A stretch of 64,000 nucleotides of DNA from Adlercreutzia faecimuris (GTDB taxonomy: Bacteria > Actinomycetota > Coriobacteriia > Coriobacteriales > Eggerthellaceae). How positions within the stretch are numbered: position 1 is the first letter of the stretch; every line of letters starts with the position of its first letter. Shown one piece after another: positions 1,398 to 19,071 of the stretch. The stretch spans positions 62,001 through 126,000 of the forward strand of contig NZ_JAJMLW010000001.1 of assembly GCF_022669055.1 (NCBI RefSeq). Direction: 5' to 3'. A program made the position numbers and the translations under genes. The notes beneath the pieces are model-generated. The model ran no database searches. It worked only from the letters and a program-made list of their open reading frames with translations, and was not told the DNA's origin.

Positions 1398-1398
1398 C

Positions 1399-1971: not shown

Positions 1972-1974
1972 GCC

Positions 1975-2925: not shown

Positions 2926-2937
2926 CACGAGCCGCTG

Positions 2938-3137: not shown

Positions 3138-3140
3138 GAA

Positions 3141-3300: not shown

Positions 3301-3363
3301 ACGGCCTTCTTGCTGCAGCAGGCAGCCGAGGCGGGCCGAAGCACCAGGCGAAAGGAGCCTCTC

Positions 3364-4110: not shown

Positions 4111-4119
4111 CGCGACCGC

Positions 4120-4200
4120 TGCTCGGCGCCGCCCCTCCCCTCCCAGGCGGCGCCGAGCACGTCTGCGCGACCGCACCCGGGTGGTGCCGCCGCGCAGACG
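4120..4200 (+). other. Two consecutive perfect hairpins between torD and the napG-like gene
   Basis: Hairpin 1 pairs 4120-4132 with 4147-4159 (13 bp, TGCTCGGCGCCGC). Hairpin 2 starts at the next base and pairs 4160-4169 with 4191-4200 (10 bp, CGTCTGCGCG). No T-run follows, so they are more likely RNA-processing or stability elements than terminators. Confidence 0.55.
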
Positions 4201-4239
4201 AGGGAACGTGAGAGCAAGAGGAACCCGAGGGGGAAGGCC

Positions 4240-5097
4240 ATGCAGGGGATGAAGGAGAAGAGCAGCGGGCAGGCGACTGCCGGCAGCGGCGCGGCGGCGC
4301 CCTTGGGCGCATCGGCGGCCGACGGCGCCACGCGCGCCGACGACGCGACGAGAAGCGGCAGGCGGCCGGCCGGGATGAGCCGGCGCCAGTTCGTGATGGC
4401 CGGGGCCGCGGGCGCGGTGCTGGTGGGCGCCGGGGGCCTGGGGGCCTTCGCGCGCGACACGGCACAGGCGGCCTACCTGCGGCCTCCCGGGGCCGAGGAC
4501 GAGGCACACCTGCTGGCGCGCTGCGACCGCTGCCAGCGCTGCGTGCAGGCGTGCCCCTACGACCTGGTGCAGCCGCGGCCGCTGACCTGGGACTTCCCCG
4601 CGGTGGGGACGCCCGAGCTCATCTATAAGGACGGCTACTGCGACTTCTGCATGAAGTGCGTCGAGGCGTGCCCGACCGGCGCGCTCAGCTGGGATGCGCC
4701 CAGCGCCGCCAACATCGGCGTGGCGAAGGTGGTGAGCGACGCGTGCGTGGCCTGGGACTGGGGCGGCTGCACGGTGTGCGCCGACCGCTGCCCCGTCGAG
4801 GGCGCCATCACGCTGGACGACCGGGGCCGACCGCACGTGGACGAGGTCCTCTGCGACGGCTGCGGGCTGTGCGAGATGGTGTGCCCGGCGCCCTCGCTGC
4901 GCGCCTACGACGCGTCCACGGCCGAGAAGGGGATCTACGTGGTGAGCCGCCAGAGCGCGGCGGCGGCCGTGCCGGGCGCGCTGACCTCGGCCGAGCTCGA
5001 GGAGCTGTGCCGGACGCGCCGCACCGACGCGGGCACGGGCACGACAGCGGGCGCGGGCGCCGCAGGCTCGCGGGAGAAGGGAGGCAGCCGTGAATAA
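4240..5097 (+). CDS. NapG-like Tat-exported 4Fe-4S ferredoxin
   Basis: A 285-residue protein with a Tat signal (MSRRQFVMAGAAGAVLVG, from residue 46) after a low-complexity N-terminal extension. Four Cys clusters follow: CDRCQRCVQACP, CDFCMKCVEACP, CVAWDWGGCTVCADRCP and CDGCGLCEMVCP. NapG/MauM-type ferredoxins work with the membrane protein NapH to move electrons from quinol to periplasmic or exported acceptors. The ATG at 4240 follows a GGGGAAGG ribosome site; an internal ATG at 4375 would begin exactly at the Tat motif and is an alternative start. The C-terminal 45 residues are Gly/Ala/Thr-rich. It overlaps the napH-like gene by eight bases. Confidence 0.88.
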   Translation: MQGMKEKSSGQATAGSGAAAPLGASAADGATRADDATRSGRRPAGMSRRQFVMAGAAGAVLVGAGGLGAFARDTAQAAYLRPPGAEDEAHLLARCDRCQRCVQACPYDLVQPRPLTWDFPAVGTPELIYKDGYCDFCMKCVEACPTGALSWDAPSAANIGVAKVVSDACVAWDWGGCTVCADRCPVEGAITLDDRGRPHVDEVLCDGCGLCEMVCPAPSLRAYDASTAEKGIYVVSRQSAAAAVPGALTSAELEELCRTRRTDAGTGTTAGAGAAGSREKGGSRE

Positions 5098-5920
5098 AAT
5101 GCGCTACCTTCGCATCGGCGTGGCCCTGGCCGTGCTGGCGGCGGTGCTGGCCTGCACCTTCGCCCACGTGCCGGCAGGGACGCTCTGCGCGCTGTGCCCG
5201 GTGGGATTCGCCGAGATCGCGGTCGCCAGCGGCTCGGTGCCGTGGGCGCTCTTGCCCGGCGTGCTGGCGCTGCTGGCCGTGGTGGCCCTGCTCGGCCGCG
5301 TGTTCTGCTCGTGGGTGTGCCCCACGTCGCTGACCCGGAACCTGTTCGGCGGACGCACGCCGCGCGGCCTGACGGGCCGCACCGGCACGTGCGCCGGCTG
5401 CGCGACCGGCGCCGGCAGCGCCGCCGGCGACCCCAACGCCGCGCGCACCCGCAGCAGCCTGGCGGCCCAGGGCATCGTGCTGGCCGTGCTGCTGGCGGTG
5501 TCGCTGGTGGTGCACTTCCCCGTGTTCTGCCTGTTCTGTCCCATCGGGCTGGCCTTCGGGACGCTCTTCGCGGCGAGCCGCCTGCTCATCACCTGGCAGC
5601 CGGGCTGGGAGCTCATCGTCTTCCCGGCCATGCTGCTGGCCGAGGTGTTCCTGCTGCGCCGTTGGTGCGCGGCCATCTGTCCCCTCGGGTTCTTCTTCGG
5701 GCTGGCCGCCAAGCTGCACGTGCGCCTGCCGTTCGCGCCCAAGCCGCGCGCCGACGCCGCGACGTGCCTCTACGCCGAGGGCTGCCGCACCTGCGCCACC
5801 GTCTGCCCCGAGGACATCTGCGACGCCACCGCCACCCCGCGCGACCTGGAGGACTGCACCGGCTGCCTCGACTGCAAGGAGCACTGCCCCACCAAGGCCG
5901 TCAAGCTGACGGGGAAGTAG
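5090..5920 (+). CDS. NapH-like membrane 4Fe-4S quinol dehydrogenase
   Basis: A 276-residue polytopic protein with four to five membrane helices, two membrane-embedded CxxxCP pairs typical of NapH/NosR ('FCSWVCP', 'FCLFCP', 'WCAAICP') and C-terminal ferredoxin motifs ending CTGCLDCKEHCP. It would oxidise menaquinol and reduce the napG-like partner. Translation probably starts at a GTG (5090), which has GGAGG five bases upstream; an ATG at 5099 is the alternative. The start lies inside the end of the upstream gene, so the two are translationally coupled. A bidirectional terminator follows. Confidence 0.88.
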   Translation: MNKMRYLRIGVALAVLAAVLACTFAHVPAGTLCALCPVGFAEIAVASGSVPWALLPGVLALLAVVALLGRVFCSWVCPTSLTRNLFGGRTPRGLTGRTGTCAGCATGAGSAAGDPNAARTRSSLAAQGIVLAVLLAVSLVVHFPVFCLFCPIGLAFGTLFAASRLLITWQPGWELIVFPAMLLAEVFLLRRWCAAICPLGFFFGLAAKLHVRLPFAPKPRADAATCLYAEGCRTCATVCPEDICDATATPRDLEDCTGCLDCKEHCPTKAVKLTGK

Positions 5921-5954
5921 CGGCGCGGCGAGCGCCATCCGACGCGCCGACGCG

Positions 5955-5985
5955 AAGGGGCCCGCTCACCCGAGCGGGCCCCTTT
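5955..5985. terminator. Bidirectional terminator between napH-like and NCS1 permease genes
   Basis: A 13-bp stem (AAGGGGCCCGCTC with its complement) with a 4-5 base loop and a short T-run on the plus side, between convergent genes. The stem sequence is almost the same as the rpsI terminator at 19.3 kb. Confidence 0.8.
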
Positions 5986-6045
5986 CATGCGATCAGGCCG
6001 CCCTCTAGGCGCAGGCCGGCGCCCCCAGCGCCCTCGCCCGCACGC

Positions 6046-7341
6046 CTAGCGCCCCGCCAGCACGCGCTTGTCGAAGGCCTTGCTCAGCACCGTGTAGAGC
6101 ACCAGCGTGAACGCGAACGCCACCACGGGCGACACGAAGAAGTTGGCCATCAGGCACAGCTGCCCCACCGCGCCGCCGGCGAGCCAGCACACCAGGGCCA
6201 CCGGGTTGAAGCCGATGCCCGCCTTCGAGTTCTTGACGAAGCAGTACTCGGCGATGATGAGCGCCGGCACCGGCGCCAGCAGCACCGACAGGAACTGGAT
6301 GACGGGCAAGAGGAAGCTGAGCGCCCCGCAGGCCGCGAAGATGGCCGCCGCCACGGTGATGGACAGCGCGATCCAGCAGTGCCGCACCTTGCCGGCCAGC
6401 GGCGTCTCGGCCAGGATGTTCTGCATGGCCAGGCCCGCGCCGTAGATGTTGTTGTCCTGGGTGGTGCACAGGCACACGAAGGTGCACACCAGCACCACCC
6501 CGCCGAGCCCCAGCGCCGCCGTGGCGGCCGAGAAGTCGGGGTCGACGGCGATCTGGGCCACCACGCAGCCCACGAACTGGAGGCAGAACAGCCCCAGGAA
6601 GGACGCCGACGTGCCGGCGCCGACGACGCCCTTGCGGCTGCGGGCGAAGCGCGCCGCGTCGGGCGTGATGAGGCAGCCGAACACCCAGCTGCCCACGATG
6701 GACGCCGACGCCTCGGTGAACGACATGGTGTTGGCCGGGTCGGGCGCGTAGGCCAGCACGGCGCCGTAGCCGTTGTTGCTCATGCCCACCATGACGAAGC
6801 AGATGACCGCCATGGCCGTGGCGATGGGCACGCCGATCCACGACACGATCTCGAGCCCGCGGTAGCCGCGCATGGCCGATATCGACCACAGGAGGATGAT
6901 GGCCGCGGACGTGGCAGCCGTCGGCAGCGGCCACCAGGGGAAGTTCACCGCCACCATCGACGCGAAGGTGTCGCCGTTGATGCCCACCCACACGGCCGAC
7001 GACAGCACCAGCAGAAGCGAGAAGATGGTCGACCCGCGCCGCCCGAAGGCGATGCGCGACAGAAACGACGTGGAAAGCCCCGTCTTGAAGGCGATGAGCC
7101 CCGTGGACACCGCGATGAAGATGAGAAAGGCGTCGGCCGTCAGCATGGCGATGACCGCGTCGATAAACGTCATGCGGAACCCGATGGCCGCGCCCGTCAC
7201 GAAGTTGGACACCGCGATGGGGTATCCCGCCAGCACCATGAACAGGCTGAGCCCGCTCGTGCGCTCGGAATCGGGCACCGCCTCGAACGCGTACTCGTAC
7301 TCGCCGCCCGGAGCGGCGGCCTTCGTTGCTTCACCACTCAT
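6046..7341 (-). CDS. NCS1-family purine/cytosine permease (CodB-like)
   Basis: A 431-residue protein with about twelve membrane helices and the CodB/NCS1 look: 'GLIAFKTGLSTSFLSRIAFGRRGS' at roughly 90-112, 'INGDTFASM', and 'DAARFARSRKGV' near residue 225. NCS1 carriers import nucleobases, allantoin, hydantoins or vitamins by cation symport; the substrate is not evident. The ATG follows GAGGGG at a suitable distance. It is the last gene of the minus-strand cai-fix cluster but is separated from fixX by 135 bp containing two strong hairpins, so it may be only weakly co-transcribed. Confidence 0.85.
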   Translation of the reverse strand: MSGEATKAAAPGGEYEYAFEAVPDSERTSGLSLFMVLAGYPIAVSNFVTGAAIGFRMTFIDAVIAMLTADAFLIFIAVSTGLIAFKTGLSTSFLSRIAFGRRGSTIFSLLLVLSSAVWVGINGDTFASMVAVNFPWWPLPTAATSAAIILLWSISAMRGYRGLEIVSWIGVPIATAMAVICFVMVGMSNNGYGAVLAYAPDPANTMSFTEASASIVGSWVFGCLITPDAARFARSRKGVVGAGTSASFLGLFCLQFVGCVVAQIAVDPDFSAATAALGLGGVVLVCTFVCLCTTQDNNIYGAGLAMQNILAETPLAGKVRHCWIALSITVAAAIFAACGALSFLLPVIQFLSVLLAPVPALIIAEYCFVKNSKAGIGFNPVALVCWLAGGAVGQLCLMANFFVSPVVAFAFTLVLYTVLSKAFDKRVLAGR

Positions 7342-7381
7342 GGAAATCCCCTCGTCTCAGCCAGTCGGCCAGCCCCGCACC

Positions 7382-7466
7382 CCGCGCCCGCGCACCCGCC
7401 GGGGTGCGCGGGCGCGGACGCGGGCCGGAATCCCGGGGCGCCGGGCCTGGGCCGGCGGCGCCCCGG
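7382..7466 (-). terminator. Two strong hairpins downstream of fixX
   Basis: A 16-bp perfect inverted repeat (7382-7397 with 7402-7417) is followed by a second stem (7433-7442 with 7457-7466). Together they fill the gap between fixX and the NCS1 permease gene. No T-run was found, so factor-independent termination is uncertain. Confidence 0.5.
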
Positions 7467-7476
7467 AGCTGGGGTT

Positions 7477-7782
7477 CTAGCCCCAGCGGTACTCGACGCC
7501 CTTGGTGGGCCCCGGGTAGTTCCAGTGGTCTAGGATGGTCGTGCCGCACAGGATCCGGCAGGTGCCGCATTCCAGGCACCCCGCGTAGTCGAAGGACGTG
7601 CGGCCATCGGCATCGCGCTTGTACAGGCCCGCCGGGCAGGCCAGCACGAGCTTGTCGAACTCCCGGTCGAAGTCGGGGGCGGCGTCGGGCTCCTTCAGCT
7701 CGATGTGGGCCGCCTCCTCGTCGACGTCGTAGCGGTTGAGGGACAGCTTCGCGTCGACGTTGACGGTGATGTCCTTGATCAT
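7477..7782 (-). CDS. fixX: FixX-like ferredoxin
   Basis: A 101-residue ferredoxin-like protein with the C-terminal motif CLECGTCRILC and an upstream ACPAGLYKRD segment, as in FixX. It passes electrons between FixC and its acceptor or quinone. The ATG overlaps the fixC stop codon (ATGA at 7779-7782), which indicates translational coupling. It completes a full FixABCX set, the electron-bifurcating complex that can couple NADH oxidation to both quinone and a low-potential acceptor. Confidence 0.92.
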   Translation of the reverse strand: MIKDITVNVDAKLSLNRYDVDEEAAHIELKEPDAAPDFDREFDKLVLACPAGLYKRDADGRTSFDYAGCLECGTCRILCGTTILDHWNYPGPTKGVEYRWG

Positions 7783-9065
7783 AGCGCCGTCACCCCTCCC
7801 TTAGCGTCCTTGAGCACGTTCATGATCCCGACCGTCTTCACCGGGTCCATGAGCTTGCGCCTCAGGGGCACGCACGGCTCGCCGTCGACGATGAACAGGT
7901 TGTTCATCATGTCGCGGACCATGGCCGGGTACTCGTTGAAGATGCGCTTGGTGCTCTCCATGAAATGCGGGAACTTCTGGAACTGCCGCAGGTCCTTCAT
8001 CACGTAGGACCCGTCGAGCAGCTGGGTGTAGCGGGCGAGCTTGGCGGCGCTCACGTCGCCGGCGTCCAGGGCCTCGATGGCGGCCTGGGCGGCGAAGTCG
8101 CCCGAGGTCACCGCGAAGTCCATGCCGCGGACGCAGTAGCCCAGGTTGATGCAGAGCATGCCGGCGTCGCCCGTCACCAGGCAGCCGTCGGTCACCAGCT
8201 TGGGCACCATGGCGTAGCCGCCCTCGGGCACCATGTGGCCCGAGTACTCCACCACCTTGCCGCCCTTGACGGGCGGGGCGACGGCCGGGTGCTGCTTGAA
8301 GTCCTCGAACATCTGGTAGACCGGCGTGTCGGCCGTCACCAGGTCGGACAGCGTGGCCACCAGGCCCAGCGAGATGGAGTCCTTGTTGGTGTACATGAAC
8401 GCTCCGCCCACGTGCCCGTGGGTGGCGTCGCCGGCGAACAACCATGCCGCGCCCTCGCCGGGGGCCAGCAGCAGCCGGTCCTCGATGACCTCGGCCGGCA
8501 GCTCGATGAGCTCCTTCAGGCCCACAGCCATCTGGTGCGGCTGCGGCGTGGGGGCGCCGACGGCCTTGGCGGTGAGCAGCGAGTTCACGCCGTCCGCCAG
8601 GATGACGATGTCGGCGGTCAGCGTGTCCTCGCCGGCCACCACGCCCTTCACGGCGCCGTCCTCCGTCACCAGGTCGTCCACGGGGATGCCGTAGATGCAC
8701 TCGGCGCCCGCGTCCTCGGCCTGCTGGGCGAGCCACTGGTCGAAGGGGCCGCGCAGCACCGTCCAGGAATCCTCCCCCGGCGTGTGCATCTTGTCGGAGG
8801 TGAAGTCGATGGTGAAGTTGGCCTCCGGGTCGATGAGCGAGATGCGCTCATGGGTGACCCGGCGCTCCAGCGGCGCCTCCTCCTCGAAGTCGGGGAAGAC
8901 CTTCTTCAGCGAATGGGAGTAGATGCGCCCGCCGGTCATGTTCTTGGCTCCGGCGTAGTTGCCGCGCTCGATCATGAGCACGCTCTTCCCCGCCTTCGCC
9001 AGCTGGTAGGCGGCCACCGATCCGGCGCACCCCGCTCCTACCACGATAACGTCAAAGTCAGCCAT
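7779..9065 (-). CDS. fixC: FixC-like flavoprotein (ETF-quinone oxidoreductase family)
   Basis: A 428-residue FAD protein beginning with a Rossmann motif (VVGAGCAGSVAAYQLAKAG), with 'GGRIYSHSLKKVFPDF' and the later FAD-binding stretch 'GDAGMLCINLGYCVRGMDFA'. It matches FixC, the ETF:quinone-reductase-like subunit of the FixABCX complex. The ATG at 9065 is preferred to the upstream GTG at 9074 because GGGAG lies ten bases upstream of the ATG but abuts the GTG. It sits between fixB (18 bp) and fixX (4-bp overlap). Confidence 0.93.
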   Translation of the reverse strand: MADFDVIVVGAGCAGSVAAYQLAKAGKSVLMIERGNYAGAKNMTGGRIYSHSLKKVFPDFEEEAPLERRVTHERISLIDPEANFTIDFTSDKMHTPGEDSWTVLRGPFDQWLAQQAEDAGAECIYGIPVDDLVTEDGAVKGVVAGEDTLTADIVILADGVNSLLTAKAVGAPTPQPHQMAVGLKELIELPAEVIEDRLLLAPGEGAAWLFAGDATHGHVGGAFMYTNKDSISLGLVATLSDLVTADTPVYQMFEDFKQHPAVAPPVKGGKVVEYSGHMVPEGGYAMVPKLVTDGCLVTGDAGMLCINLGYCVRGMDFAVTSGDFAAQAAIEALDAGDVSAAKLARYTQLLDGSYVMKDLRQFQKFPHFMESTKRIFNEYPAMVRDMMNNLFIVDGEPCVPLRRKLMDPVKTVGIMNVLKDAKGGVTAL

Positions 9066-9083
9066 AGCGCTCACACTCCCGTC

Positions 9084-9968
9084 CTAGAGCTCCGCGTTGA
9101 TCTTGGGGAGCACGTCGGCGATGTCGCCCGCCAGGCCGTAGTCCACCTGCTGGAAGATAGGCGCGTTCTTGTCCTTGTTGATGGCGAAGCTCACCTTGGC
9201 GCGGTCGACGCCCACCATGTGCTGCATCTGGCCCGACACGCCGATGCCGACGTACACCTCGGGGTTGAGGATGAGGCCGGACACGCCGATGTAGGCCTCG
9301 CGCGGGAACCAGGTCTCGCTCTCGGTCAGCGGACGCGTGCAACCCAGCTCGGCGCCGATCTTCTGGCAGAAGTCGCGGGCCAGGCCCAGCTGCTCCTCGG
9401 CGGCGAAGCCGCGGCCGGCGGCCACCACGCGCTCGGCCGCCGTCAGGTCGACCTCGGCCGGCGGCAGGTCCTCGCGGGCCACCAGGGTCAGCGGGACGGC
9501 CGGCTCGACGAACGCGACGGCCTCGGCGGCGTCGGTGCCGCTGGGCTCGGCGTCGGCGAAGGTGCCGGGGGCCACGGTCACGAAGGTGACGGGCGTGGCG
9601 GCCTTGGCGGTGCGGACGCCCACGCCGCCGAAGTACATGCTCGTGGCCACGCCGTCGGCCAGGGCCATCGCGTCGGTGATGACGCTGGCGCCCTCGCGAG
9701 CGGCGATGCGCCCGGCGATGGTCTTCAGGCGGCGGGTGGGCTCCACCAGCACGATGTCGGGCTGCACGTCCTGGTACACCTGGTAGAACGTCTCCAGCGC
9801 GTCCTCCTTGGGATGCCCCTCGGGGACGGTGACGGTCACCACGCGGTCGGCCACGCCGGCCACGGGATCATCGAACGTGACGAGGGTGACCTCGTCGGCG
9901 AGCGTGCGGGCCCCGGCGGACAGCTCGCGGGCCGCGGGCTCGGATTCGGCGAAAACGAGTGCCTTCAT
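9084..9968 (-). CDS. fixB: Electron transfer flavoprotein alpha subunit (FixB)
   Basis: A 294-residue ETF-alpha protein. The C-terminal FAD-binding domain is recognisable ('VVAAGRGFAAEEQLGLARDF', 'GVSGQMQHMVGVDRAKVSFA', and 'AINKDKNAPIFQQVDYGLAG' near the end). With FixA it forms the ETF that exchanges electrons with the acyl-CoA dehydrogenase encoded upstream. The start has a GGGAGG ribosome site. Spacing to fixA is 14 bp. Confidence 0.94.
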   Translation of the reverse strand: MKALVFAESEPAARELSAGARTLADEVTLVTFDDPVAGVADRVVTVTVPEGHPKEDALETFYQVYQDVQPDIVLVEPTRRLKTIAGRIAAREGASVITDAMALADGVATSMYFGGVGVRTAKAATPVTFVTVAPGTFADAEPSGTDAAEAVAFVEPAVPLTLVAREDLPPAEVDLTAAERVVAAGRGFAAEEQLGLARDFCQKIGAELGCTRPLTESETWFPREAYIGVSGLILNPEVYVGIGVSGQMQHMVGVDRAKVSFAINKDKNAPIFQQVDYGLAGDIADVLPKINAEL

Positions 9969-9982
9969 CTTGTGCCTCCCTT

Positions 9983-10747
9983 CTACAGCGCGCCCTTGAG
10001 GGCGGCCACGAACGCGTCCAGCTCGCCGTCCTGGGCGGCGTCGAACAGCTCCTTCTTGCGCGCCGCGGGCTCGGGCGCGCTCACGTCGATGACCTCGACG
10101 GCCGCCGGGGCCAGCTCGCCCAGGTCGCCCGCCGCGTACATGGTCACCGGCTTCTTACCGGCCGCCAGGATGTCCTTCATGCCGGCTATGCGCGGCACGG
10201 CGATGTCGGGGCTCACCGACAGCACGGCGGGCAGCGGCAGCGTCACCGTCTCGCGCTCGTTCTCGAGCACGCGCTCGACGGTCACCGTGCCGTCGCCGGC
10301 GGTGATGGCCGTCACGCCGTTGAGCGACGGCCAGCCGAGCGCCTCGGCCAGCTGGACGTCCACCTGCTGGGCGTACAGGTCGGCCGACCCGTCGCCGCAG
10401 ATGACGAGGTCGATGCCGTCGGCCTGGTTCACCATGGCCGCCAGGGCCTGGGCCGTCTGGCGTGCGTCCATGTCGGCCAGCGCGTCGTCGGCCGCCATGG
10501 CCAGCGCGTCGATGCCGCGGGACAGGATGTTCTTCTTGGTCTTGGAGTCATCGACGCTCGCCGGCCCCGCCACGATGGCGGTGGTGGCGGCGCCGGTGTC
10601 GGCGGCCAGCAGCGCGGCCGCCTCGATGGCGTTGAGGTCATAGGTGCTCACGACGGGCTTCGCCTTCGACGCGTCGAGCTTGCGGTCGGCGGTGACGACG
10701 ATGTCCTGATCGTCCGGGAGCACCTTCACCATAACTGCGATATTCAC
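9983..10747 (-). CDS. fixA: Electron transfer flavoprotein beta subunit (FixA)
   Basis: A 254-residue ETF-beta protein with 'VKVLPDDQDI' at the N terminus, 'STYDLNAIEAAALL' and 'ICGDGSADLYAQQVDVQLAE', as in FixA. The frame stays open ten codons further upstream, but the GTG at 10747 has AGGAG with six bases of spacing and begins right at the conserved NIAVMVK stretch. It lies 33 bp after the acyl-CoA dehydrogenase gene, the same order (caiA next to fixA) as in related anaerobic CoA-ester reductase operons. Confidence 0.93.
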   Translation of the reverse strand: MNIAVMVKVLPDDQDIVVTADRKLDASKAKPVVSTYDLNAIEAAALLAADTGAATTAIVAGPASVDDSKTKKNILSRGIDALAMAADDALADMDARQTAQALAAMVNQADGIDLVICGDGSADLYAQQVDVQLAEALGWPSLNGVTAITAGDGTVTVERVLENERETVTLPLPAVLSVSPDIAVPRIAGMKDILAAGKKPVTMYAAGDLGELAPAAVEVIDVSAPEPAARKKELFDAAQDGELDAFVAALKGAL

Positions 10748-10780
10748 GATCTGCTCCTTTTCGCTTCGCTCGGGCACGGG

Positions 10781-11944
10781 CTACAACAGGTCGGCGGCGT
10801 ACTTCTTGACCACCTGGCGACCGGCGATGTGAACCATGATCTCCTCGGTGCCGCCCGCGAAGGAGTCGCCGCGGCAGTCCTCCCAGATACGGCCGATGCG
10901 GCACTCGGTGGTGTAGCCGATGCCGCCGAAGATCTGCATGGCGTCAGAGGCGACCTTCGTGCACATCGAAGACAGGTAGCGCTTGCACAGCGCGCTGTCG
11001 AGGCGCACGGACATGCCCTGGTCGAATTCCCAGGCCGTCTTGTACAGCAGGTTGCGCATGTTCTGGACGGTGGTCTCCATGTCGGTCAGCTTCTCCTGGA
11101 TCAGCTGGTGCATGTAGAGCGGCTTGCCGAAGGTCATGCGCTGGGCGGCGTAGCGGGCGGCGTCCTCGAGGGCGGCCTGCGCCAGGCCCAGGCTGTGGGC
11201 GGCCAGCATGATGCGCTCGAGCTCGAAGTTCTTCATGAGCTGCTTGAAGCCCTCGCCCTTCTTGCCGAGCAGCATGTCCTGGGGCACCACGACGTTGTCG
11301 AAGTAGATCTCGTCGAAGTTGGTGATGGTCTGGCCGATCTTGTGCAGCGGGGCCATCTTGACGCCCTCGGCGTCCTTCGGGATGAGGAACATCGACATGG
11401 ACTTGTTGTCGTGGGACGGATCCTCGTCCTTGCCGATGAACATGATGAACGGGGCCGTCTCGGCATGGCTGACCATGGTCTTGGTGCCGTTGAGGACGCA
11501 GGTGCCGTCATCGTTCCAGTGGACGGTGGCCGTCATGGACATGTTGTCGGATCCGGCGCCGGGCTCGGAAAGCGCCAGCGAGAAGCACTGCTCGCCGGTC
11601 TTCTGGTAGGCTTCCATGCCCATCTTCACCTGCTCGGGGCTGCCGAACTCGGCCAGGTCGAACATGGCCAGGCCGTAGGACATGAAGGACATCGTGGCGC
11701 CGGTGCAGCGCATGAGCTCCTCCACCACCAGCGCCAGGGTCACGGCGTCGCTGGGGATGCCGCCGTATTCCTCGGGGAGGAACAGGTAGCCGAAGCCGGC
11801 GTCGAGGTAGGCCTTGCACACCTCGGGCTCGACGCGACGATCCTTGTACCACTTCTGGATGCGCTCCTCGGTGATCTCGCGGGCGCAGAACTCGCGAAGG
11901 TTGTCGAGCATCAGTTCTTGCTCATCGGTGATCTTGAAATCCAT
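10781..11944 (-). CDS. Acyl-CoA dehydrogenase, CaiA-like (enoyl-CoA reductase)
   Basis: A 387-residue acyl-CoA dehydrogenase of normal length, with 'GFGYLFLPEEYGG', 'CFSLALSEPGAGSDNMSM' and the C-terminal 'DCRGDSFAGGTEEIMVHIAG'. It resembles CaiA (crotonobetainyl-CoA reductase), which runs in the reducing direction with electrons from FixAB. The neighbouring CoA ligase and CoA transferase genes supply CoA esters. The true substrate is unknown: no caiD hydratase, caiE or CaiT-type carrier is present here. Start: ATG with GGAG six bases upstream. Confidence 0.93.
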   Translation of the reverse strand: MDFKITDEQELMLDNLREFCAREITEERIQKWYKDRRVEPEVCKAYLDAGFGYLFLPEEYGGIPSDAVTLALVVEELMRCTGATMSFMSYGLAMFDLAEFGSPEQVKMGMEAYQKTGEQCFSLALSEPGAGSDNMSMTATVHWNDDGTCVLNGTKTMVSHAETAPFIMFIGKDEDPSHDNKSMSMFLIPKDAEGVKMAPLHKIGQTITNFDEIYFDNVVVPQDMLLGKKGEGFKQLMKNFELERIMLAAHSLGLAQAALEDAARYAAQRMTFGKPLYMHQLIQEKLTDMETTVQNMRNLLYKTAWEFDQGMSVRLDSALCKRYLSSMCTKVASDAMQIFGGIGYTTECRIGRIWEDCRGDSFAGGTEEIMVHIAGRQVVKKYAADLL

Positions 11945-11999
11945 GGCACACTCCGTTCTTCGATCGTCTTGCTTTCCAGGTCTATGCTTGAGCGGCCAC

Positions 12000-12033
12000 G
12001 GGCGCCCTCCCCCCTGGTGGCGGGAGGATGCCC
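12000..12033 (-). other. Hairpin in the caiC-caiA intergenic gap
   Basis: Stem of GGGC and CCTCCC blocks with their complements, just after the caiC-like stop. It could be an mRNA-processing or attenuation hairpin within the operon; no T-run is present. Confidence 0.35.
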
Positions 12034-12049
12034 GTTTCCGCTGGCTGCC

Positions 12050-13762
12050 TCAGGGGCGGCGGCGGGCCGCCTCGCGGGCCCGCAGCGCCCGCTTGTCGGG
12101 CTTGCCCAGGTGCGTGGTGGGGATGCGGTCGATGAACTCCACGTACTTGGGGCATTTGTAGGCCAGCAGGTGCTCGTGGCAGTAGGCGATGGCCTCCTGC
12201 TCGGTCAGCTGCGCGCCCGGGTGCAGCACGACGAAGCTCTTGGGGCGCTCGACCGACCGCTCGTCGGGGACGCCCACCGTGCACGCCTCGGCCACCGCCG
12301 GGTGCGCGAACAGCACCTCGTCGATCTCGCGCGGGAACACGCTGAACCCGCCGACGCAGATCACGTCCTTGATGCGGTCGACCACGAACAGGCAGCCGGA
12401 CTCGTCGAAGTAGCCCACGTCCCCGCTGTAGATCCAGTCGCCGCGGAAGGCCTTGGCCGTCTCCTCGGGCACATGCCAGTACTCCTTGATGACCTGCGGC
12501 CCGCGGAAGATGACCTCGCCGTGCTCGCCGAACCCGAGCGGGCGCTCGCCCGTCTCCAGGTCGACCACCAGCACGTCGGTGTCGATGCAGGGCACCCCCA
12601 CGCTGCCGGCGGAGGCGCCGCGCAGCACCGGGGTGAGGGTGACCGGGCCGGCGGTCTCGGTCATGCCGTAGTCCTCGACCACGGCCACATCGGGATGCAG
12701 CCGCTCGAAGCGCCGCATGATCTCGCCGGACGTGGCGGCGCAGCTGACCACCACGGCCCGCAGCGACGACACGTCCCGGCTCTCCCGCTCCTCGGCCGAG
12801 CAGAAGTCGTTGAGCAGCGTGGGCACCGCGCCCCATACCGTGGGACGGTGGCGCTCCACCAACGCGGCGAGGGACGGGCCGTCCAGGTGCTCGGCCAGCA
12901 CCACGGGGCCGCCCGCTACGAACCCCCAGTTCACGCCGAAGTTCATGCCGTAGGCGTGAGTCATGGGACTCGTGACCAGGCTCGTCATGGCGCGGCCCTC
13001 GCCCAGCAGCGGCTCAAGGTCGCGGAAGAACAGGCGCTGGGCCTGCAGCAGCATCCGGTTGGTGAGGGGGCAGCCCTTGCTCACGCCCGTGGTGCCGCCG
13101 GTGTAGATGATCATGGCCGGGTCGTCAGGGGCGGGCGGGTCGGCCGGCTCGGGGGCCGGGCCGTCGGCCGCCACGCGGGCGAAGGAGGCCACGGGGACGG
13201 GAGGCTCGGTCGGCAGCGCGGCGGGGATGGCGGGCGCCTCCGCGGCCTCGGGGGCGTCGTCGGCCACCGCCAGCACGATCCGCGGGGCCGCGCCGGCGCG
13301 CTCCGCGGCCGCCGCCAGGTCGTCCAGCCGCCCGGCAGGGGCCACCACGGCCGCCGGGGCGCAGTCGGCCAGGTTCGCCGCCATCTCGTCCACGGTCGAG
13401 CGCGGGTTCACGCCCACCACCACGTAGCCGGCCTTGTAGCAGGCCATGTACGCCTCGATCAGCTCGGGCACGTTGCCCAGCATCACGACCACGCGGTCAC
13501 CCCGCGTGACGCCGGCCGCGGCCAGCGCGGCCGCCACGCGGCACGCCGCCTCGTTGGTCTGACGGTAGGTGAGCGCCTCGTCGCGGTAGGCCGCGTGCAC
13601 GGCGTCGGGCCGATCCGCCACCGTCGCGGCGATGCAGTCGGCCATGGTGACGTCGGGCAGGGGGTCGTGGCGAGGAACGCCGGCGTCGTAGGCGGCCTGC
13701 CAGAGGGGCTCCAGCTCGGCGACCTTGCGGTCGAACCGCGCCTCCCACGTCTCGGATGCCAT
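12050..13762 (-). CDS. Acyl-CoA synthetase / AMP-dependent CoA ligase, CaiC-like
   Basis: A 570-residue ANL-superfamily ligase. The P-loop AMP-binding motif YTGGTTGVSKG is at about residue 220, followed by 'VEDYGMTETAGPVTL', 'YSGDVGYFDESGCLFVVDR' and the C-terminal lysine region 'TTHLGKPDKRALRAREA'. It activates a carboxylic acid to its CoA ester. The frame is open a further 52 codons upstream, but that part is an ACGAA-type simple repeat and the ATG at 13762 has GGAGG at a good distance. It lies between the MFS carrier and caiA-like genes, so it probably primes the CoA-ester cycle that the CaiB-like transferase would sustain. Confidence 0.9.
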   Translation of the reverse strand: MASETWEARFDRKVAELEPLWQAAYDAGVPRHDPLPDVTMADCIAATVADRPDAVHAAYRDEALTYRQTNEAACRVAAALAAAGVTRGDRVVVMLGNVPELIEAYMACYKAGYVVVGVNPRSTVDEMAANLADCAPAAVVAPAGRLDDLAAAAERAGAAPRIVLAVADDAPEAAEAPAIPAALPTEPPVPVASFARVAADGPAPEPADPPAPDDPAMIIYTGGTTGVSKGCPLTNRMLLQAQRLFFRDLEPLLGEGRAMTSLVTSPMTHAYGMNFGVNWGFVAGGPVVLAEHLDGPSLAALVERHRPTVWGAVPTLLNDFCSAEERESRDVSSLRAVVVSCAATSGEIMRRFERLHPDVAVVEDYGMTETAGPVTLTPVLRGASAGSVGVPCIDTDVLVVDLETGERPLGFGEHGEVIFRGPQVIKEYWHVPEETAKAFRGDWIYSGDVGYFDESGCLFVVDRIKDVICVGGFSVFPREIDEVLFAHPAVAEACTVGVPDERSVERPKSFVVLHPGAQLTEQEAIAYCHEHLLAYKCPKYVEFIDRIPTTHLGKPDKRALRAREAARRRP

Positions 13763-13772
13763 GGTTCCTCCC

Positions 13773-13850
13773 TTCATCGTTCGTATCGTTTCGTATCGGT
13801 TCGTTTCGTCTTGCCTGTTTCGTTCGTTTCGTTCGTTCCGTTCGTCTCGC
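13773..13850 (-). repeat. Short simple-sequence tract (CGTTT/CGTT units) upstream of the CaiC-like gene
   Basis: About 75 bp made of interspersed 4- and 5-base units (TCGTT, TCGTTT), reading as ACGAA/ACGAAA on the coding strand. It lies between the MFS stop and the caiC-like ribosome site. Copy-number change could alter mRNA leader length, though the units are not perfectly tandem. Confidence 0.5.
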
Positions 13851-13945
13851 CCGCCGCCGGCCTCGCCGCCTCGCGGGGCGGCCGGCGGCGGCTGGGCGGC
13901 GGGTGCGCCGCGCGCCACGCCCTGCGGCGCGCCCGCCTGGGTTCC

Positions 13946-15256
13946 CTACTTCACGTCCGGGTTCTCAGCGGCCCAGGCCCACAGCCCCTTACGGGTCTTG
14001 AGCGCCACGAGGAGGGCCAGCAGGGCCAGCACGCCGATCACCATGTCGATGATGAAGGCGCCGCTGTAGGATCCGGTGATGTCGTAGATCCAGCCCCAGA
14101 AGGTGGATCCGACGGCCGCGCACAGCGGCATCACGACGGCCACGTAGGCGAAGATGCGGTCGTAGGACACGTTGCCGAACAGCTTGCGGGCCACCTGCGG
14201 CACGTTGGTGGGCTGCACCGCGAAGAAGATGCCGAAGCAGACGGCGCCCACGTACAGCCAGATGACGCTGTCGCCGCCGAAGAGCATCATGCAGGCCAGG
14301 CCGACGATCATGGGCACGATGCCGACGATGTTGGACAGCACGATGGAGTAGTCGTTCAGGAAGCCCAGGATGAGCTTGCCGAACAGCGAGGACAGCATGA
14401 TGGTCGAGGCCACGAGCGCGCCGGTGGCGGCGTCATAGCCGATGGAGGTCGTGAAGGACGGGAAGAAGTAGTTCATGGTCAGGCCGATGTTGGCCAGGCC
14501 GGCGAAGATGCAGCACAGCACGAAGGTCGAGGGCTTCTTGAGGGCCTGCTTGAGGGTGATGCCGTCGGTCTTGGTGGCCGCGGCCTTCTCGGCGGCCTGC
14601 ACCTCGGGGTCGTCCCAGCCCAGCGGCTTGAGGCCCTTGTCCTCGGGGCGGCTGCGCACCACGATCAGCGCGAGCGGGATGCAGATGACCAGCACGAGGA
14701 TGGCCTGGTACAGGTAGGCGGTACGCCAGCCGGCCGACTGGATGATGCTCGAGAACACGGGCGCCAGCAGCGTGCCCGATATGGACGTGCACGCCATGCC
14801 CACGCCGATGAGCAGGCCGATGCGCTTCTTGAACCAGCGGCCCACCACCACGGGCACGATCAGCCACAGGAGCCACGCGTTGCCGATGCCCATGAGCACG
14901 CCGGCCACGTAGAACCACTCGATGGATGGGGCGTAGGACATCAGCAGCAGCGCCACGCCCACCAGCGCGCAGGCGATGGACAGGATGATGCGCAGGTCCA
15001 CCTTCTGCAGCAGCGGGCCGGCCCAGAACAGGTTGGCGACGCAGGCGGTGGCGTAGACGAGCGTCATGTAGAAGCCGACGTTGGCGCGGCCCACGCCGAA
15101 GGCGGTGGCCACCGACTCGTAGTAGATGCTCGCGGTGTTGAAGGTGAACGCGCACGCCAGGAACATGCAGATGCACACGGCGATGTAAACGTACCACCCG
15201 TAGTAGACCTTGCCCGATTTCGCGGGCGCTTCGGCGGTTTTAGGTTGCGAGGTCAT
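13946..15256 (-). CDS. MFS transporter, oxalate/formate-antiporter-like (OFA) family
   Basis: A 436-residue carrier with twelve predicted helices, beginning 'YYGWYVYIAVCICMFLACAF', followed by 'GVGRANVGFYMTLVYATACV', 'GIGNAWLLWLIVPVVVGRWF' and the loop 'VVRSRPEDKGLKPLGWDD', the usual OFA-type pattern. OFA carriers exchange or import small carboxylates. Its place between the caiB-like and caiC-like genes suggests it brings in the acid that is activated to a CoA ester, a role filled in carnitine operons by the unrelated BCCT carrier CaiT. The substrate is inferred, not shown. Confidence 0.87.
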   Translation of the reverse strand: MTSQPKTAEAPAKSGKVYYGWYVYIAVCICMFLACAFTFNTASIYYESVATAFGVGRANVGFYMTLVYATACVANLFWAGPLLQKVDLRIILSIACALVGVALLLMSYAPSIEWFYVAGVLMGIGNAWLLWLIVPVVVGRWFKKRIGLLIGVGMACTSISGTLLAPVFSSIIQSAGWRTAYLYQAILVLVICIPLALIVVRSRPEDKGLKPLGWDDPEVQAAEKAAATKTDGITLKQALKKPSTFVLCCIFAGLANIGLTMNYFFPSFTTSIGYDAATGALVASTIMLSSLFGKLILGFLNDYSIVLSNIVGIVPMIVGLACMMLFGGDSVIWLYVGAVCFGIFFAVQPTNVPQVARKLFGNVSYDRIFAYVAVVMPLCAAVGSTFWGWIYDITGSYSGAFIIDMVIGVLALLALLVALKTRKGLWAWAAENPDVK

Positions 15257-15325
15257 AGGGTCCCCCTTTCTGCGGAGAGCCTTGGTCGGATTTGGCTTTG
15301 GAGCCTCTTCGGTTGTGACGGTGTC

Positions 15326-16552
15326 CTAGCGGGAGTGGATCAGCTCCGGATCGTTGTTGATGACGCCCTTGGCGTAGAGCTCGTCGATCTCGGCGGGGGT
15401 GTAGCCGAGCTCGCCCATGATCTCCTCGTTGTGCTGGCCGAAGGCGGGGCAGGGCCCCCACACCTTCGCCGGGTGGTTCTTGAACTTGGGATAGGGCGCT
15501 ACGGCGCGGATCTTCGTCCCCTTCACGGACTCCCATTCGATGATGTCCTCGCGGGCCTGGACGTGCGGATCAACCTCCACCTCGGCGAAGGTGTTGATGC
15601 GCGACACGGGGATGTTGTGCTCGAGCATGATCTGCTCGGCCTCCTCCACCGTGCGCTCGGCGAGCCACGCCTCCAGGGCGGCGAGGAAGGTCTTGCCGGC
15701 CTCCGTCTCGATGCTCCACGTCGCGGAGCCCTCGGGGAACACGTCGGTGCCGTAGGGCAGGCCCAGAAGCTCGTTGCCGCGCTTCATGACGGCCGCGCCG
15801 TTGAAGCAGCAGAACAGGTAGCCGTCCTTGCACTGGTAGGCGCCCCAGCCGGCGTTGATGTTCTGCTCGCCCGCCGTCGGGAAGGTCTTGTGGTTGGTGA
15901 ACCAGTCGATGGAGTAGATGCTCGTGCGCAGCATGCACTCGTACTGGCTGGCGTCGATGGAGTCGCCGACGCCCGTGCGCTCGGCCTGGTGCCACGCGGC
16001 CAGCAGCGCGATGCACGCGTAGAGGGCCGTGGTGTAGTCGCTGGCGAACTGGCCGACGGCATAGGGCGGCGAGAAGGGGTTCTCGTTCTCGTGCAGGTAG
16101 CCCGAGAAGGCCTGGCCGATGGCGTCGAAGGAGGGGCGCTTGACGTACTCCGGCACGCCGGTCTGCCCGAAGCCCGAGATGTGGCCGATGACCAGCTTGG
16201 GATTGCGCTCCCACAGCACGTCATCGGACAAGCCCAGGCGATCGAACTGGCCGCCCTTGGACGACTCGATGAAGATGTCGGCGTCCTCGATGAGCTTGAG
16301 CATGAGCTCGCGGCCCTCGTCGCTCTTCATGCGCACGGCCATCGCGCGGCAGTTGCGGCGCTCGCCCTCGCACTACCAGTTGGGGGTGCCGCGGGTGAAG
16401 TCGGGGGCGTCCGCGTTCTCGACCCAGATCACGTCGGCGCCGTACTCAGCCAGCACCGTGGCGATGAAGGGACCCGCGAGCGAGGACGAGGCGCTCACCA
16501 CCTTGAGATCCGACAGCGTGCCGAATTCCGGCTTGTTTTTGTTACGCCACAT
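15326..16552 (-). pseudogene. CaiB-like CoA transferase interrupted by an in-frame amber codon
   Basis: Read through, the frame gives about 408 residues, the normal length of class III CoA transferases such as CaiB. The N-terminal part starts at the ATG at 16552 behind GGAGG ('SDLKVVSASSSLAGPFIATV') and ends at TAG (16373-16375, codon 60: RGTPNW-stop-CEGERRNCRAM). The remaining part resumes in the same frame and carries 'GQTGVPEYVKRPSFDAIGQA'. Everything after the stop is intact, so the change is either a recent nonsense mutation (one base from a CAG or TAC/TAT codon), a sequence error, or recoding. It is the first gene of the cai-fix operon. If truly null, the cell would rely on the CaiC-like ligase to make CoA esters. 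Confidence 0.85.
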
Positions 16553-16878
16553 CGTTCCTCCTTGGTCTTGGGGGTATGTTTCCAGGTCAAACCACGGCCT
16601 TATGAACGATTGAGGGCAGTACCTGCTTGAAGCACGGTGGAACAAGGTGAAGCGGAAACGCAAACGGCTCCTCGTGGTAGCGGGAAGAACCATCCCTGAT
16701 GAGGAGCGTTAGCGTTAGAGTAGTACTTCGGCAGAGTTTTGGAATTTAAATGGATTCACTGTAAAAACGCTGCCCCATCCTTGTTTCCTTTCTGTAAACC
16801 GATCATGACCTTTCCGCACATCTTTACCCCGCTAAAGCACGCCAACACAGCGCGATGCCACGCGAACCGCGCTTTCCC
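16553..16878. other. Intergenic region upstream of the caiB-like gene; no gene seen
   Basis: About 330 bp, notably AT-richer around 16730-16800. It must hold the promoter of the minus-strand cai-fix operon, but I could not pick a convincing -35/-10 pair. No protein or RNA gene is evident. Confidence 0.4.
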
Positions 16879-16907
16879 TTGACTGCTTCGCAGCGACTCC
16901 TTAGTAT
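16879..16907 (+). promoter_or_regulatory. Promoter of the RelB/PIN operon
   Basis: TTGACT (16879-16884), 17-bp spacer, TAGTAT (16902-16907), a near-consensus housekeeping promoter. A GTAATAC direct repeat (two copies nine bases apart) follows directly and may be an antitoxin operator. Confidence 0.7.
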
Positions 16908-16936
16908 GTAATACACGTAATACGAAAGGAGGCGCC

Positions 16937-17221
16937 ATGGAATCCGTGCTCACCGTGCGGCTCGACGCGCAGATGAAGGAACGGGGCTCCCGGGTCATGC
17001 GCCAGGCGGGCCTCACGCCCTCCCAGGCGGTTCGCCAGCTCTTCGACTACGCCTCCCGCAACGACGCGCTCCCCTTCCCCGCCGCGCCCAAGCCCGGCAA
17101 GGAGGAGGTCGCCCGGCGCATTGCCGCGTTCGACCGCTGCCATACCAAGCGCCCGCTGACGCTCACCGACGACGAGCTGCGCGAGGAGAGGATGAGGGAG
17201 CGCTATGGTCTTGATGCTTGA
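16937..17221 (+). CDS. RelB/DinJ-family antitoxin
   Basis: A 94-residue protein with the ribbon-helix-helix start of the DinJ/RelB family ('VLTVRLDAQMKERGSRVMRQ', then 'GLTPSQAVRQLFDYASRNDA') and a charged C-terminal tail expected to wrap and block a toxin. AGGAGG lies four bases upstream of the ATG. It overlaps the next gene by 17 bases, the normal coupling of toxin-antitoxin pairs. The partner is a PIN-domain protein rather than the RelE/YafQ toxin usually found with this antitoxin fold. Confidence 0.88.
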   Translation: MESVLTVRLDAQMKERGSRVMRQAGLTPSQAVRQLFDYASRNDALPFPAAPKPGKEEVARRIAAFDRCHTKRPLTLTDDELREERMRERYGLDA

Positions 17222-17648
17222 TGCCAACATCGTGATCGACCACATCGGGCGACGCGAGCCCTTCTACGAGCTGTCGCGGCGGGTCTGCCTTCTGGGGATA
17301 ACGGGCGAGGCCGCCACCTACATCTCCACCAATATGGCCACCGACATCTACTACCTGCTGCGCAAGGACTACGGCAGCCAGGAGGCCCAGCGCATGATCG
17401 AGGAGGACCTCTCCTTCCTGGCCCTGGTGGGCGTCGACCCGCAGGACGTGCACGAGGCCCTGGCGCTGCGATGGGGCGACTTCGAGGACTGCCTGGTGGC
17501 CCAGTGCGCCCGGAAGATCGGCGCCGACTACATCATCACCCGAAACACGCGCGACTTCACCCGCTCCAGCATAAAGGCCCTCACCCCCGAGCAGCTCTTC
17601 GAGGAACTAGCCGCCCGCGGCCTCGTCTACGAGGAGATAGACTGGTAG
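17205..17648 (+). CDS. PIN-domain ribonuclease toxin (VapC-like)
   Basis: A 147-residue PIN-domain protein. The acidic catalytic residues are visible: D in 'LMLDANIVIDH' near the N terminus, the T/S-E region around 'STNMATDIYYLL', and 'DFEDCLVAQCARKIGADYII' with the final TRNTRDF motif, all typical of VapC-like RNases that cut tRNA or other RNA. It is coupled to the RelB/DinJ-like antitoxin upstream, so the two form a mixed-family module. A GGGAG ribosome site lies inside the antitoxin gene. Confidence 0.88.
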   Translation: MVLMLDANIVIDHIGRREPFYELSRRVCLLGITGEAATYISTNMATDIYYLLRKDYGSQEAQRMIEEDLSFLALVGVDPQDVHEALALRWGDFEDCLVAQCARKIGADYIITRNTRDFTRSSIKALTPEQLFEELAARGLVYEEIDW

Positions 17649-17725
17649 CCCCTAAAGAGAAGGAGGCGCTTCGAGGTAGCCCTCGACATCATCATGGCAT
17701 CGGAATCCGCGTAACCCTCGCCGCC

Positions 17726-17751
17726 TAGGTGTTAAGCGTTTAACAGCTAAG
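17726..17751 (+). repeat. 26-bp repeat, copy 1 (TAGGTGTTAAGCGTTTAACA...)
   Basis: First of three near-identical 26-bp copies (others at 19082 and 19176) built around a GTTAAGCGYTTAAC palindrome. The copies bracket the Fic gene and its 38-bp palindromes. Confidence 0.8.
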
Positions 17752-17765
17752 GTGCGAAATACTCC

Positions 17766-17851
17766 TGACTGAGTTAAAAATCACGCGATTTTTAACTCAG
17801 TCATCCCTCATAACTCTCTACTGAGTTAAAATATCACTAGTATTTAACTCA
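17766..17851 (+). promoter_or_regulatory. Operator-like palindromes upstream of the Fic gene
   Basis: A 38-bp palindrome (17766-17803) has 17-bp arms TGACTGAGTTAAAAATC around ACGC. A second, imperfect one (about 17821-17849) repeats the TGAGTTAAA half-site. They lie 20-100 bases before the Fic start. The C-terminal helix-turn-helix of the Fic protein makes autoregulation at TGAGTTAAA half-sites a reasonable guess. Confidence 0.7.
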
Positions 17852-17868
17852 ATCAGGAGCACTCAGCC

Positions 17869-19071
17869 ATGGCCTACAAGGACTTCCGTAAACTCTTTCA
17901 CGACCCCACATCCAACGCAGATGCCGTCTATGAGAGCCGGCTCAGCGATCCGCGCACCCTTCACCTCGGCACGACGGTCGCCGGGGCCCCCGCCTTCGTC
18001 TTCATGGCCCCCGAGCTATACGACGCCCTCCTCGAGGCAGCCCGGCTTGACAAGGAAATCCTCAAGCTGGAGCTGTCGCTGCCCGGCCGAGCCCTCGACA
18101 GCTACCGCGACAGCTGCCTCATCGACGAGATCGTGCTCACCAACGAGATCGAGGGTGTCCGCTCCACCCGCCGTGAGATCGGCGAGGTGCTCGAGCGCCT
18201 GCGTGAGAACGACCGTCACGGCCGCTTCCTCGGTATCGTGCAGAAGTACGCCCTGCTGGAAAGCCGACCCGACATCGCGGTGAGCACCTGCGACGACATT
18301 CGCGCCATCTACGACGACCTCGTCCTCGCCGAGGTGAGCGCCGCCACGCCCGAATGCGTCCCCGACGGCCGCTGGTTCCGCACCAAGATCGTCCACGTCG
18401 TCGACCAGGCAGGCATTCCCATCCACGATGGCCTCGAGCCCGAGAGTCGCATCATCGACGAGATGAACAACGCGCTGGGCCTCCTCAACGACGATGGCAT
18501 CGACCTGCTCGTCAGGGTGGCGCTGTTTCACTTCCTCTTCGGCTACATCCACCCCTTCTATGACGGAAACGGCCGCACCAACCGCTTCATCAGCAGCTAT
18601 CTCATCTCGCAAGAATACGAGCCTATCGTGGGGCTGGGCATCTCCTACGCCGTGAAGAACGACATCAACAAGTACTACAAGGCGTTCACCACCTGCGAGC
18701 ACACCCTCAACCGCGGCGACCTGACCCCCTTCGTCATCGCCTTCTGCGAGATTATCGTCCAGGCCATGCGTAACCTCCGTGACTCCCTCGCCGAGAAGCG
18801 CACCGCTTTCGAGCAGCACCTGGAAACGACCGATCGCCTGCTGCCCCCCGAGAGCCGCGACGTTGCCGAAGTCCTCGTCACAGCGACGCTATTCTCGTTC
18901 GAGGGCATCGGCACCGCCGCCATGGCGCGCGTGCTTGGGATATCCCGGCAGACGCTCTACAAGCGCCTGGAGCCCCTGAGGAAGCTGGGGCTGATCGAGT
19001 CGTTCAAGATCGGACGCAAGACGCATTACGCCCTCAACCGGGAGCGCCTCGCCGAGCTTGCCGAACGGTAA
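17869..19071 (+). CDS. Fic-domain protein with C-terminal helix-turn-helix
   Basis: A 400-residue Fic protein. The catalytic motif HPFYDGNGR is at residues 228-236. An N-terminal TNEIEG (T91...E95-G96) matches the inhibitory (S/T)xxxE(G/N) helix of class II Fic enzymes, so activity is probably autoinhibited. The C-terminal 70 residues form a winged-helix-like domain ('VLGISRQTLYKRLEPLRKLG'). Fic enzymes usually AMPylate or otherwise modify a Ser/Thr/Tyr on a target protein. AGGAG precedes the ATG by nine bases. The gene stands alone between repeated palindromes directly after a toxin-antitoxin pair, which suggests a self-contained regulatory or mobile unit. Confidence 0.92.
   Translation: MAYKDFRKLFHDPTSNADAVYESRLSDPRTLHLGTTVAGAPAFVFMAPELYDALLEAARLDKEILKLELSLPGRALDSYRDSCLIDEIVLTNEIEGVRSTRREIGEVLERLRENDRHGRFLGIVQKYALLESRPDIAVSTCDDIRAIYDDLVLAEVSAATPECVPDGRWFRTKIVHVVDQAGIPIHDGLEPESRIIDEMNNALGLLNDDGIDLLVRVALFHFLFGYIHPFYDGNGRTNRFISSYLISQEYEPIVGLGISYAVKNDINKYYKAFTTCEHTLNRGDLTPFVIAFCEIIVQAMRNLRDSLAEKRTAFEQHLETTDRLLPPESRDVAEVLVTATLFSFEGIGTAAMARVLGISRQTLYKRLEPLRKLGLIESFKIGRKTHYALNRERLAELAER

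Follow-up and report, generated by a model that had tools for sequence, protein, structure and literature searches.

What might a gut actinobacterium do with a set of carnitine-type genes from which caiT and caiD are missing? This question is raised by a nine-gene operon of Adlercreutzia faecimuris, located at positions 6046–16552 of a 64,000-nucleotide stretch of DNA, hereafter the window (assembly GCF_022669055.1, contig NZ_JAJMLW010000001.1, positions 62,001–126,000 of the forward strand). An earlier note had described the operon as carnitine-like, with CaiA, CaiB and CaiC homologues and a complete FixABCX; its span is exact, and Pfam, NCBIfam and motif comparison bear out the full Fix set. 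All genes run on the minus strand from 16552 down to 6046 with short gaps (the longest of 171 bases), the FixX and FixC genes overlapping and the FixA gene standing 3 bases from the dehydrogenase gene. Pfam and NCBIfam assign the products to a type III CoA-transferase, a major facilitator superfamily (MFS) carrier, an AMP-binding ligase, an acyl-CoA dehydrogenase, two electron transfer flavoprotein (ETF) subunits, a FixC-type flavoprotein, a FixX-type ferredoxin and an NCS1 permease. From sequence comparison, we propose that the genes form a CoA-ester reductase operon specific to Eggerthellaceae, a variety of the cai/ydi/car kind that is accessory within its genus and whose transferase is probably broken here.

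The carnitine label is not supported by phylogenetic analysis. Because trees place the dehydrogenase and the transferase outside the true Cai clades, the operon cannot be called carnitine-like by CaiA and CaiC homology, and it appears to be a separate Eggerthellaceae-specific module rather than a stripped carnitine operon. The dehydrogenase shares 42% identity with YdiO and 35% with CaiA of E. coli K-12. In a quick-method tree of 70 sequences (stop-containing translations, duplicates, matches below 340 aa and scores below 150 were left out), it falls in a clade of 8 Coriobacteriia proteins (support 99), apart from E. coli CaiA, the YdiO clade and the CaiA proteins of Eggerthellaceae; the supposed CaiA homologue is thus neither a CaiA nor a YdiO. 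Its Glu243 stands at the isovaleryl-CoA dehydrogenase position, with Gly at the medium-chain acyl-CoA dehydrogenase position, as in both CaiA and YdiO; we take these to be the two positions of the catalytic glutamate in this family. The stretches YVLYQLPG and AGxHR, which are specific to CaiA, are absent from the window's dehydrogenase. The ligase is about equally distant from CaiC (28%) and FadK (27.5%), and its best matches in the PDB are a fatty-acyl-/feruloyl-CoA synthetase and a 4-coumarate-CoA ligase. Among the best 80 of 368 loci (per-locus hits were kept if they covered over half the query), CaiA proteins 60–61% identical to that of E. coli, with CaiB-like neighbours, occur in Senegalimassilia anaerobia, Adlercreutzia mucosicola, Eggerthella sinensis and Paraeggerthella hongkongensis, and CaiC-like ligases lie in the stretches of three of these four loci. 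Other clusters of Eggerthellaceae and Coriobacteriia (L060, L061, L062, L063–L066) pair two acyl-CoA dehydrogenases, 51–56% and 34–44% identical to the window's, some with FixABCX; these probably represent further uncharacterised CoA-ester reductases.

The rest of the genome (2.79 Mb, 97.8% complete) constrains the chemistry further. No match to the BCCT carrier family (PF02028) was found in it, and its only PF00378 protein is MenB, which scores above the NCBIfam cut-off (468 versus 380 bits), so that caiT and caiD, reported missing from the operon, are not encoded elsewhere in the genome either. The reported lack of caiE holds for the operon but not for the genome, which encodes a CaiE-like hexapeptide protein on another contig, at C2:351949 (45% identity over 154 aa). 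A gene of this kind also lies beside the operon in the related genome G021, and in Candidatus Aveggerthella such a gene (L033:982–1563) stands between the MerR and transferase genes. The genome's one acyl-CoA dehydrogenase, one ETF pair and one type III CoA-transferase are all in the operon, which is the only acyl-CoA redox unit found. No thiolase was found in the genome. With neither a thiolase nor a crotonase besides MenB, a single redox step is all that the genome allows for the dehydrogenase, and nothing found could process its product by beta-oxidation, which we reject.

We therefore consider it fairly probable that the operon encodes a one-step electron-sink module, a reductase of enoyl-CoA esters. 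An unsaturated carboxylic acid would be imported by the MFS or NCS1 carrier and would first be activated to its CoA ester by the ligase; at steady state, by analogy with CaiB, the CaiB-like transferase would pass the CoA of the saturated product on to incoming substrate. The dehydrogenase-family enzyme would then reduce the enoyl-CoA with electrons from FixAB, while FixC and FixX, if they act like their E. coli counterparts, would take electrons from menaquinol or some other donor, and the saturated acid would be expelled. The order of import, activation and Fix-dependent reduction is that suggested in the earlier note, and it is consistent with the sole dehydrogenase and ETF, the missing thiolase and a crotonase complement limited to MenB.

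The Fix proteins fit such a role. FixC contains the quinone-binding domain PF21162 (Pfam) and has FixC (7koe) as its best PDB match. The set as a whole is of the YdiQRST type of ETF/quinone oxidoreductase, matching PRK10015 above its cut-off and the YdiQ, YdiR and FixX-type models below theirs. The dehydrogenase, FixC and FixX each resemble their ydi counterparts in E. coli (YdiO, YdiS and YdiT) more than CaiA, FixC and FixX. FixA, whose start is probably the GTG at 10747 as judged by orthologue starts, carries GDGSADLYAQQV, close variants of which are present in E. coli FixA and YdiQ (the E. coli-type GDGSxDLYAQQV motif). Absent from the window's FixA is the EtfB stretch AIDGDTAQVG, seen in 4kpu_B and CarD, which we take to be a mark of electron bifurcation. 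This combination suggests plain electron delivery to the reductase by FixAB, as in E. coli, rather than NADH bifurcation. Published values place crotonyl-CoA at about −10 mV and caffeyl-CoA at −30 mV (PMC5861303), above menaquinone at −74 mV (PMC10734219), so that menaquinol-driven reduction of such esters would be feasible. FixABCX genes are also reported from equol clusters (PMC8898433).

Several known systems invite comparison. E. coli caiTABCDE with fixABCX, which converts carnitine to gamma-butyrobetaine, likewise combines a CaiB-family transferase, a ligase, FixABCX and a reductase of the acyl-CoA dehydrogenase type whose catalytic Glu occupies the same position; the present operon differs in its dehydrogenase (35%, outside the CaiA clade) and ligase (28%), in lacking CaiT and CaiD, in having two other carriers, and in its linkage to MerR in relatives. 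The E. coli ydiO-ydiQRST-fadK set includes a ligase and provides the closest E. coli dehydrogenase (42%), FixC (53%) and FixX (56%), but the operon lacks a YdiF-type transferase, has a CaiB-type transferase and two carriers instead, and its dehydrogenase forms a separate clade. The car operon for caffeate reduction in Acetobacterium woodii also couples a dehydrogenase-family reductase to an ETF for one-step enoyl-CoA reduction, and presumably contains ligase and CoA-transferase genes as well; however, CarC reaches 168 bits where 4rm7 reaches 267, the FixA of the operon lacks the CarD-type motif, and FixC/FixX here are of the quinone type. A published account of Propionibacterium freudenreichii describes a caiABC and fixABCX cluster, associated with carnitine compounds and frequently pseudogenised, that is without caiD and caiT but carries an MFS gene and a hydratase gene (PMC11007987), a precedent for another carrier replacing CaiT. 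That cluster, compared by its published description only, and the YdiO-like clusters of Eggerthella sinensis and Actinotalea share with ours a CaiB-type transferase, a ligase, FixAB or FixABCX and an MFS carrier in the place of CaiT. All of them differ from ours by an enoyl-CoA hydratase, and the E. sinensis and Actinotalea loci also by a YdiO-like dehydrogenase (51–55%). The bbu cluster for gamma-butyrobetaine stands apart in having a BCCT carrier together with two transferases of class III (PMC8364193).

One gene of the module is interrupted in this genome. The transferase frame opens with an ATG at 16552 behind a GGAGG, runs into a TAG at 16375–16373, and is then open down to 15326; codon 60 encodes Gln in all seven close orthologues, none of which is interrupted. 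None of the other eight genes contains an internal stop, and each aligns with its orthologues over nearly its whole length. A PF02515 search of the genome returned this single copy with one internal TAG and no second type III CoA-transferase, and none of the 47 tRNA genes, all read by ARAGORN, has a CTA anticodon, which leads us to reject amber suppression or recoding. The transferase here is thus broken or at best poorly made, which leaves the pathway either dependent on the ligase, at the cost of ATP, or in early decay. Respiratory energy gain, which the earlier note had held possible, becomes doubtful in this genome because activation would fall to the ATP-consuming ligase. Since the branch of the window's copy is not lengthened in the protein tree (0.10 versus 0.08 for the two nearest), the stop should be recent or an error. 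As for ancestry, the description as a CaiB homologue is right to the extent that the protein belongs to the same transferase group as E. coli CaiB (40% identity), but it lies in a separate clade of 8 (support 100/100) apart from carnitine CaiB, in a careful-method tree of 42 sequences that left out L060 and L061 (duplicates), L068 (two stops) and matches below 330 aa. Its best NCBIfam model, L-carnitine CoA-transferase, remains below cut-off even for intact orthologues (375 versus 413 bits).

Two carriers, not one, accompany the enzymes. The MFS protein is of the MCT/OFA group, much as the earlier note had it in proposing an OFA-type carrier in place of CaiT, although all its NCBIfam scores are far below cut-offs (SfMCT 119 bits, bile-salt MFS 98, OFA 63); its best PDB match is the lactate transporter 6g9x. 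The NCS1 permease (6046–7341) had gone unmentioned. When it is compared at the cytosine-contact residues of CodB given in PMC9379551, five of five orthologues, the window's included, have Ser115 for Gln105, Trp118 for Trp108 and Trp219 for Phe204 (Trp as in Mhp1), keep the sodium-site residues Thr278/Thr279, and have Ala in place of Phe33. We reject a cytosine permease on account of the Gln105-to-Ser and Phe204-to-Trp differences. Based on these conserved and replaced binding-site residues, the protein is probably a sodium-coupled carrier with an aromatic clamp. The characterised NCS1 member MetT imports cationic metformin via an aromatic cavity (PMC13390362).

The module recurs in relatives. 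Of 138 family genomes, 82 have a dehydrogenase match at 1e-60, and 8, the present one (G000) included, have one at 69% identity or above, the next reaching 57%. Bearers include Candidatus Aveggerthella excrementigallinarum, Candidatus Rubneribacter avistercoris, Parvibacter sp., P. caecicola DSM 22242, Eggerthellaceae bacterium B82_7 and Adlercreutzia sp. ZJ141. The order transferase, MFS, ligase, dehydrogenase, FixABCX, NCS1 is complete in three of the seven relatives (G087, G079, G077) and varied in four: the G021 locus ends inside FixC at a contig end, NCS1 directly follows the dehydrogenase with no Fix genes alongside in G133, and G085 and G137 have a second MFS gene and no NCS1, with FixCX divergent in G137. 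Such conservation of gene order argues that the arrangement did not arise by chance. A MerR-family regulator adjoins the operon in six of the seven (not G133), and the linked regulator is missing in the present genome, where only weak matches at the helix-turn-helix level were found (best E 3.6e-6).

Within its own genus the operon is accessory: three same-genus genomes (97, 77 and 56% complete) are without the dehydrogenase. Two of these, G058 and G060, are colinear with the window on either side, at a Fic-family gene (17.7–19.1 kb) and a NapH-like gene (5.4–5.9 kb), with about 6.6 kb of other genes in between; the corresponding gap in the window (5400–17870) holds the operon and a toxin-antitoxin pair. 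In G058 the gap contains genes for an ABC transporter and a GltD-like oxidoreductase, besides one for an [FeFe]-hydrogenase that exceeds the TIGR02512 cut-off and is closest to group A6 (701 bits, cut-off 765), and the hydrogenase matches fall inside the gap in both genomes (G058 C328:28086–29282; G060 C18:9252–10433). No hydrogenase above the TIGR02512 cut-off was found in the present genome. Because the hydrogenase module fills the gap in G058 and G060 and the operon fills it here, one site holds one electron-disposal module or the other, depending on the sister species. A general rule of hydrogenase or module was rejected: three of the 8 bearers also have an [FeFe]-hydrogenase above cut-off (G133, G077 and G137) and five do not (G000, G021, G087, G079 and G085).

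How firmly the one-step reductase should be held depends on points that weigh against it and on what else could explain the locus. Its direction and type of substrate are putative; the module of G133, with no FixABCX beside it, indicates that Fix is not strictly tied to the module; the TAG, read in one assembly, could be an assembly error; and the loss of MerR together with the stop could mean that the operon is already silent here. The enzyme might instead run oxidatively, as part of anaerobic fatty-acid breakdown, the process that the E. coli ydi/fadK genes presumably serve. The kinship of the dehydrogenase, FixC and FixX to YdiO, YdiS and YdiT favours this, yet beta-oxidation could not proceed without a thiolase or a crotonase other than MenB, and a CoA-recycling transferase suits a substrate/product pair, so that we regard oxidation as very improbable. 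A crotonobetaine reductase fed directly by the MFS or NCS1 carrier, which would need neither hydratase nor BCCT carrier, is also improbable, if less so. It would accord with the CaiB-wide grouping of the transferase and its L-carnitine CoA-transferase model, with the carnitine-linked P. freudenreichii cluster, and with the Trp/Trp clamp that the NCS1 permease keeps, a MetT-like means of binding a cation through aromatic residues; what tells against it is that true CaiA, accompanied by CaiB and CaiC, exists in other Eggerthellaceae in a different clade, and that the CaiA-specific stretches are absent here.

It is also possible, though on balance unlikely, that the operon is a decaying relic in this genome, its transferase a pseudogene and its regulator lost. 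The TAG at a conserved Gln with no suppressor tRNA found, the lack of a close MerR match, the absence of the module from three same-genus genomes and the decay of the P. freudenreichii clusters would all agree with decay, whereas the eight other open, full-length genes, the capacity of the ligase in principle to replace the transferase, and the chance that a single base difference is an assembly error argue against it. A further, unlikely reading is an undescribed gut pathway in which the sodium-coupled NCS1 permease with its Trp/Trp clamp would import a cationic or heteroaromatic enoate (of the urocanate, indoleacrylate or crotonobetaine type) whose CoA ester would serve as a quinone-linked respiratory acceptor, the same site holding either this sink or the [FeFe]-hydrogenase sink in sister species. 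Within the collection of papers searched, none describing the module was found.

Coordinates of the features are collected in the table below. A separate respiratory reductase set adjoins the operon (42–5920), comprising a molybdopterin oxidoreductase (start cut off), an Fe-S subunit, a DmsC-type anchor, a TorD/NarJ-type chaperone and two Fe-S proteins; directly upstream, on the opposite strand, lies a pair of genes for a RelB-like antitoxin and a PIN-domain toxin (16937–17648). Consensus scanning was uninformative for sigma-70-type promoters (1 found, 1.0 expected), with 2 terminator-like elements found against 4.3 expected, and a search of plasmid DNA gave just weak matches of 60–80% in 38 records, each covering less than 80% of the query.

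Table. Genes and sequence elements of the operon (window positions)
Feature	Position	Strand	Evidence
CaiB-like type III CoA-transferase gene, 408 codons, interrupted by in-frame TAG	15326..16552	-	PF02515
In-frame TAG stop, codon 60; CAG>TAG inferred	16373..16375	-	Gln in 7/7 close orthologues
MFS carrier, MCT/OFA group, 436 aa	13946..15256	-	PF07690
AMP-forming acyl-CoA ligase, 574 aa	12050..13774	-	PF00501 + PF13193
Acyl-CoA dehydrogenase family enzyme, putative enoyl-CoA reductase, 387 aa	10781..11944	-	PF00441/02770/02771
FixA (ETF beta)	9983..10777	-	PF01012; NCBIfam PRK03359 at cut-off
FixB (ETF alpha)	9084..9968	-	PF00766 + PF01012; 38% to E. coli FixB
FixC, ETF:quinone oxidoreductase-like flavoprotein	7779..9074	-	PRK10015 above cut-off; PF21162; 53% to YdiS
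FixX ferredoxin-like protein	7477..7782	-	PRK15449 below cut-off; 56% to YdiT; cysteine motif kept
NCS1-family permease (CodB-like), 431 aa	6046..7341	-	PF02133; PDB best 7qoa cytosine permease
Perfect inverted repeat, 13 bp, 4-base loop, terminator-like, directly past operon	5955..5984	.	Read from sequence; unlisted by consensus scan

Reduction of diet- and host-derived molecules is a well-known trait of gut Eggerthellaceae, and unassigned CoA-ester reductases like the one proposed here are candidates for unexplained microbial metabolites. A cai/fix-type annotation in Eggerthellaceae need not mean carnitine use, since the true Cai proteins of the family form a separate clade. Parvibacter caecicola DSM 22242, a type strain that can be cultured, carries an intact copy of the module, so that its substrate could be sought by simple feeding.

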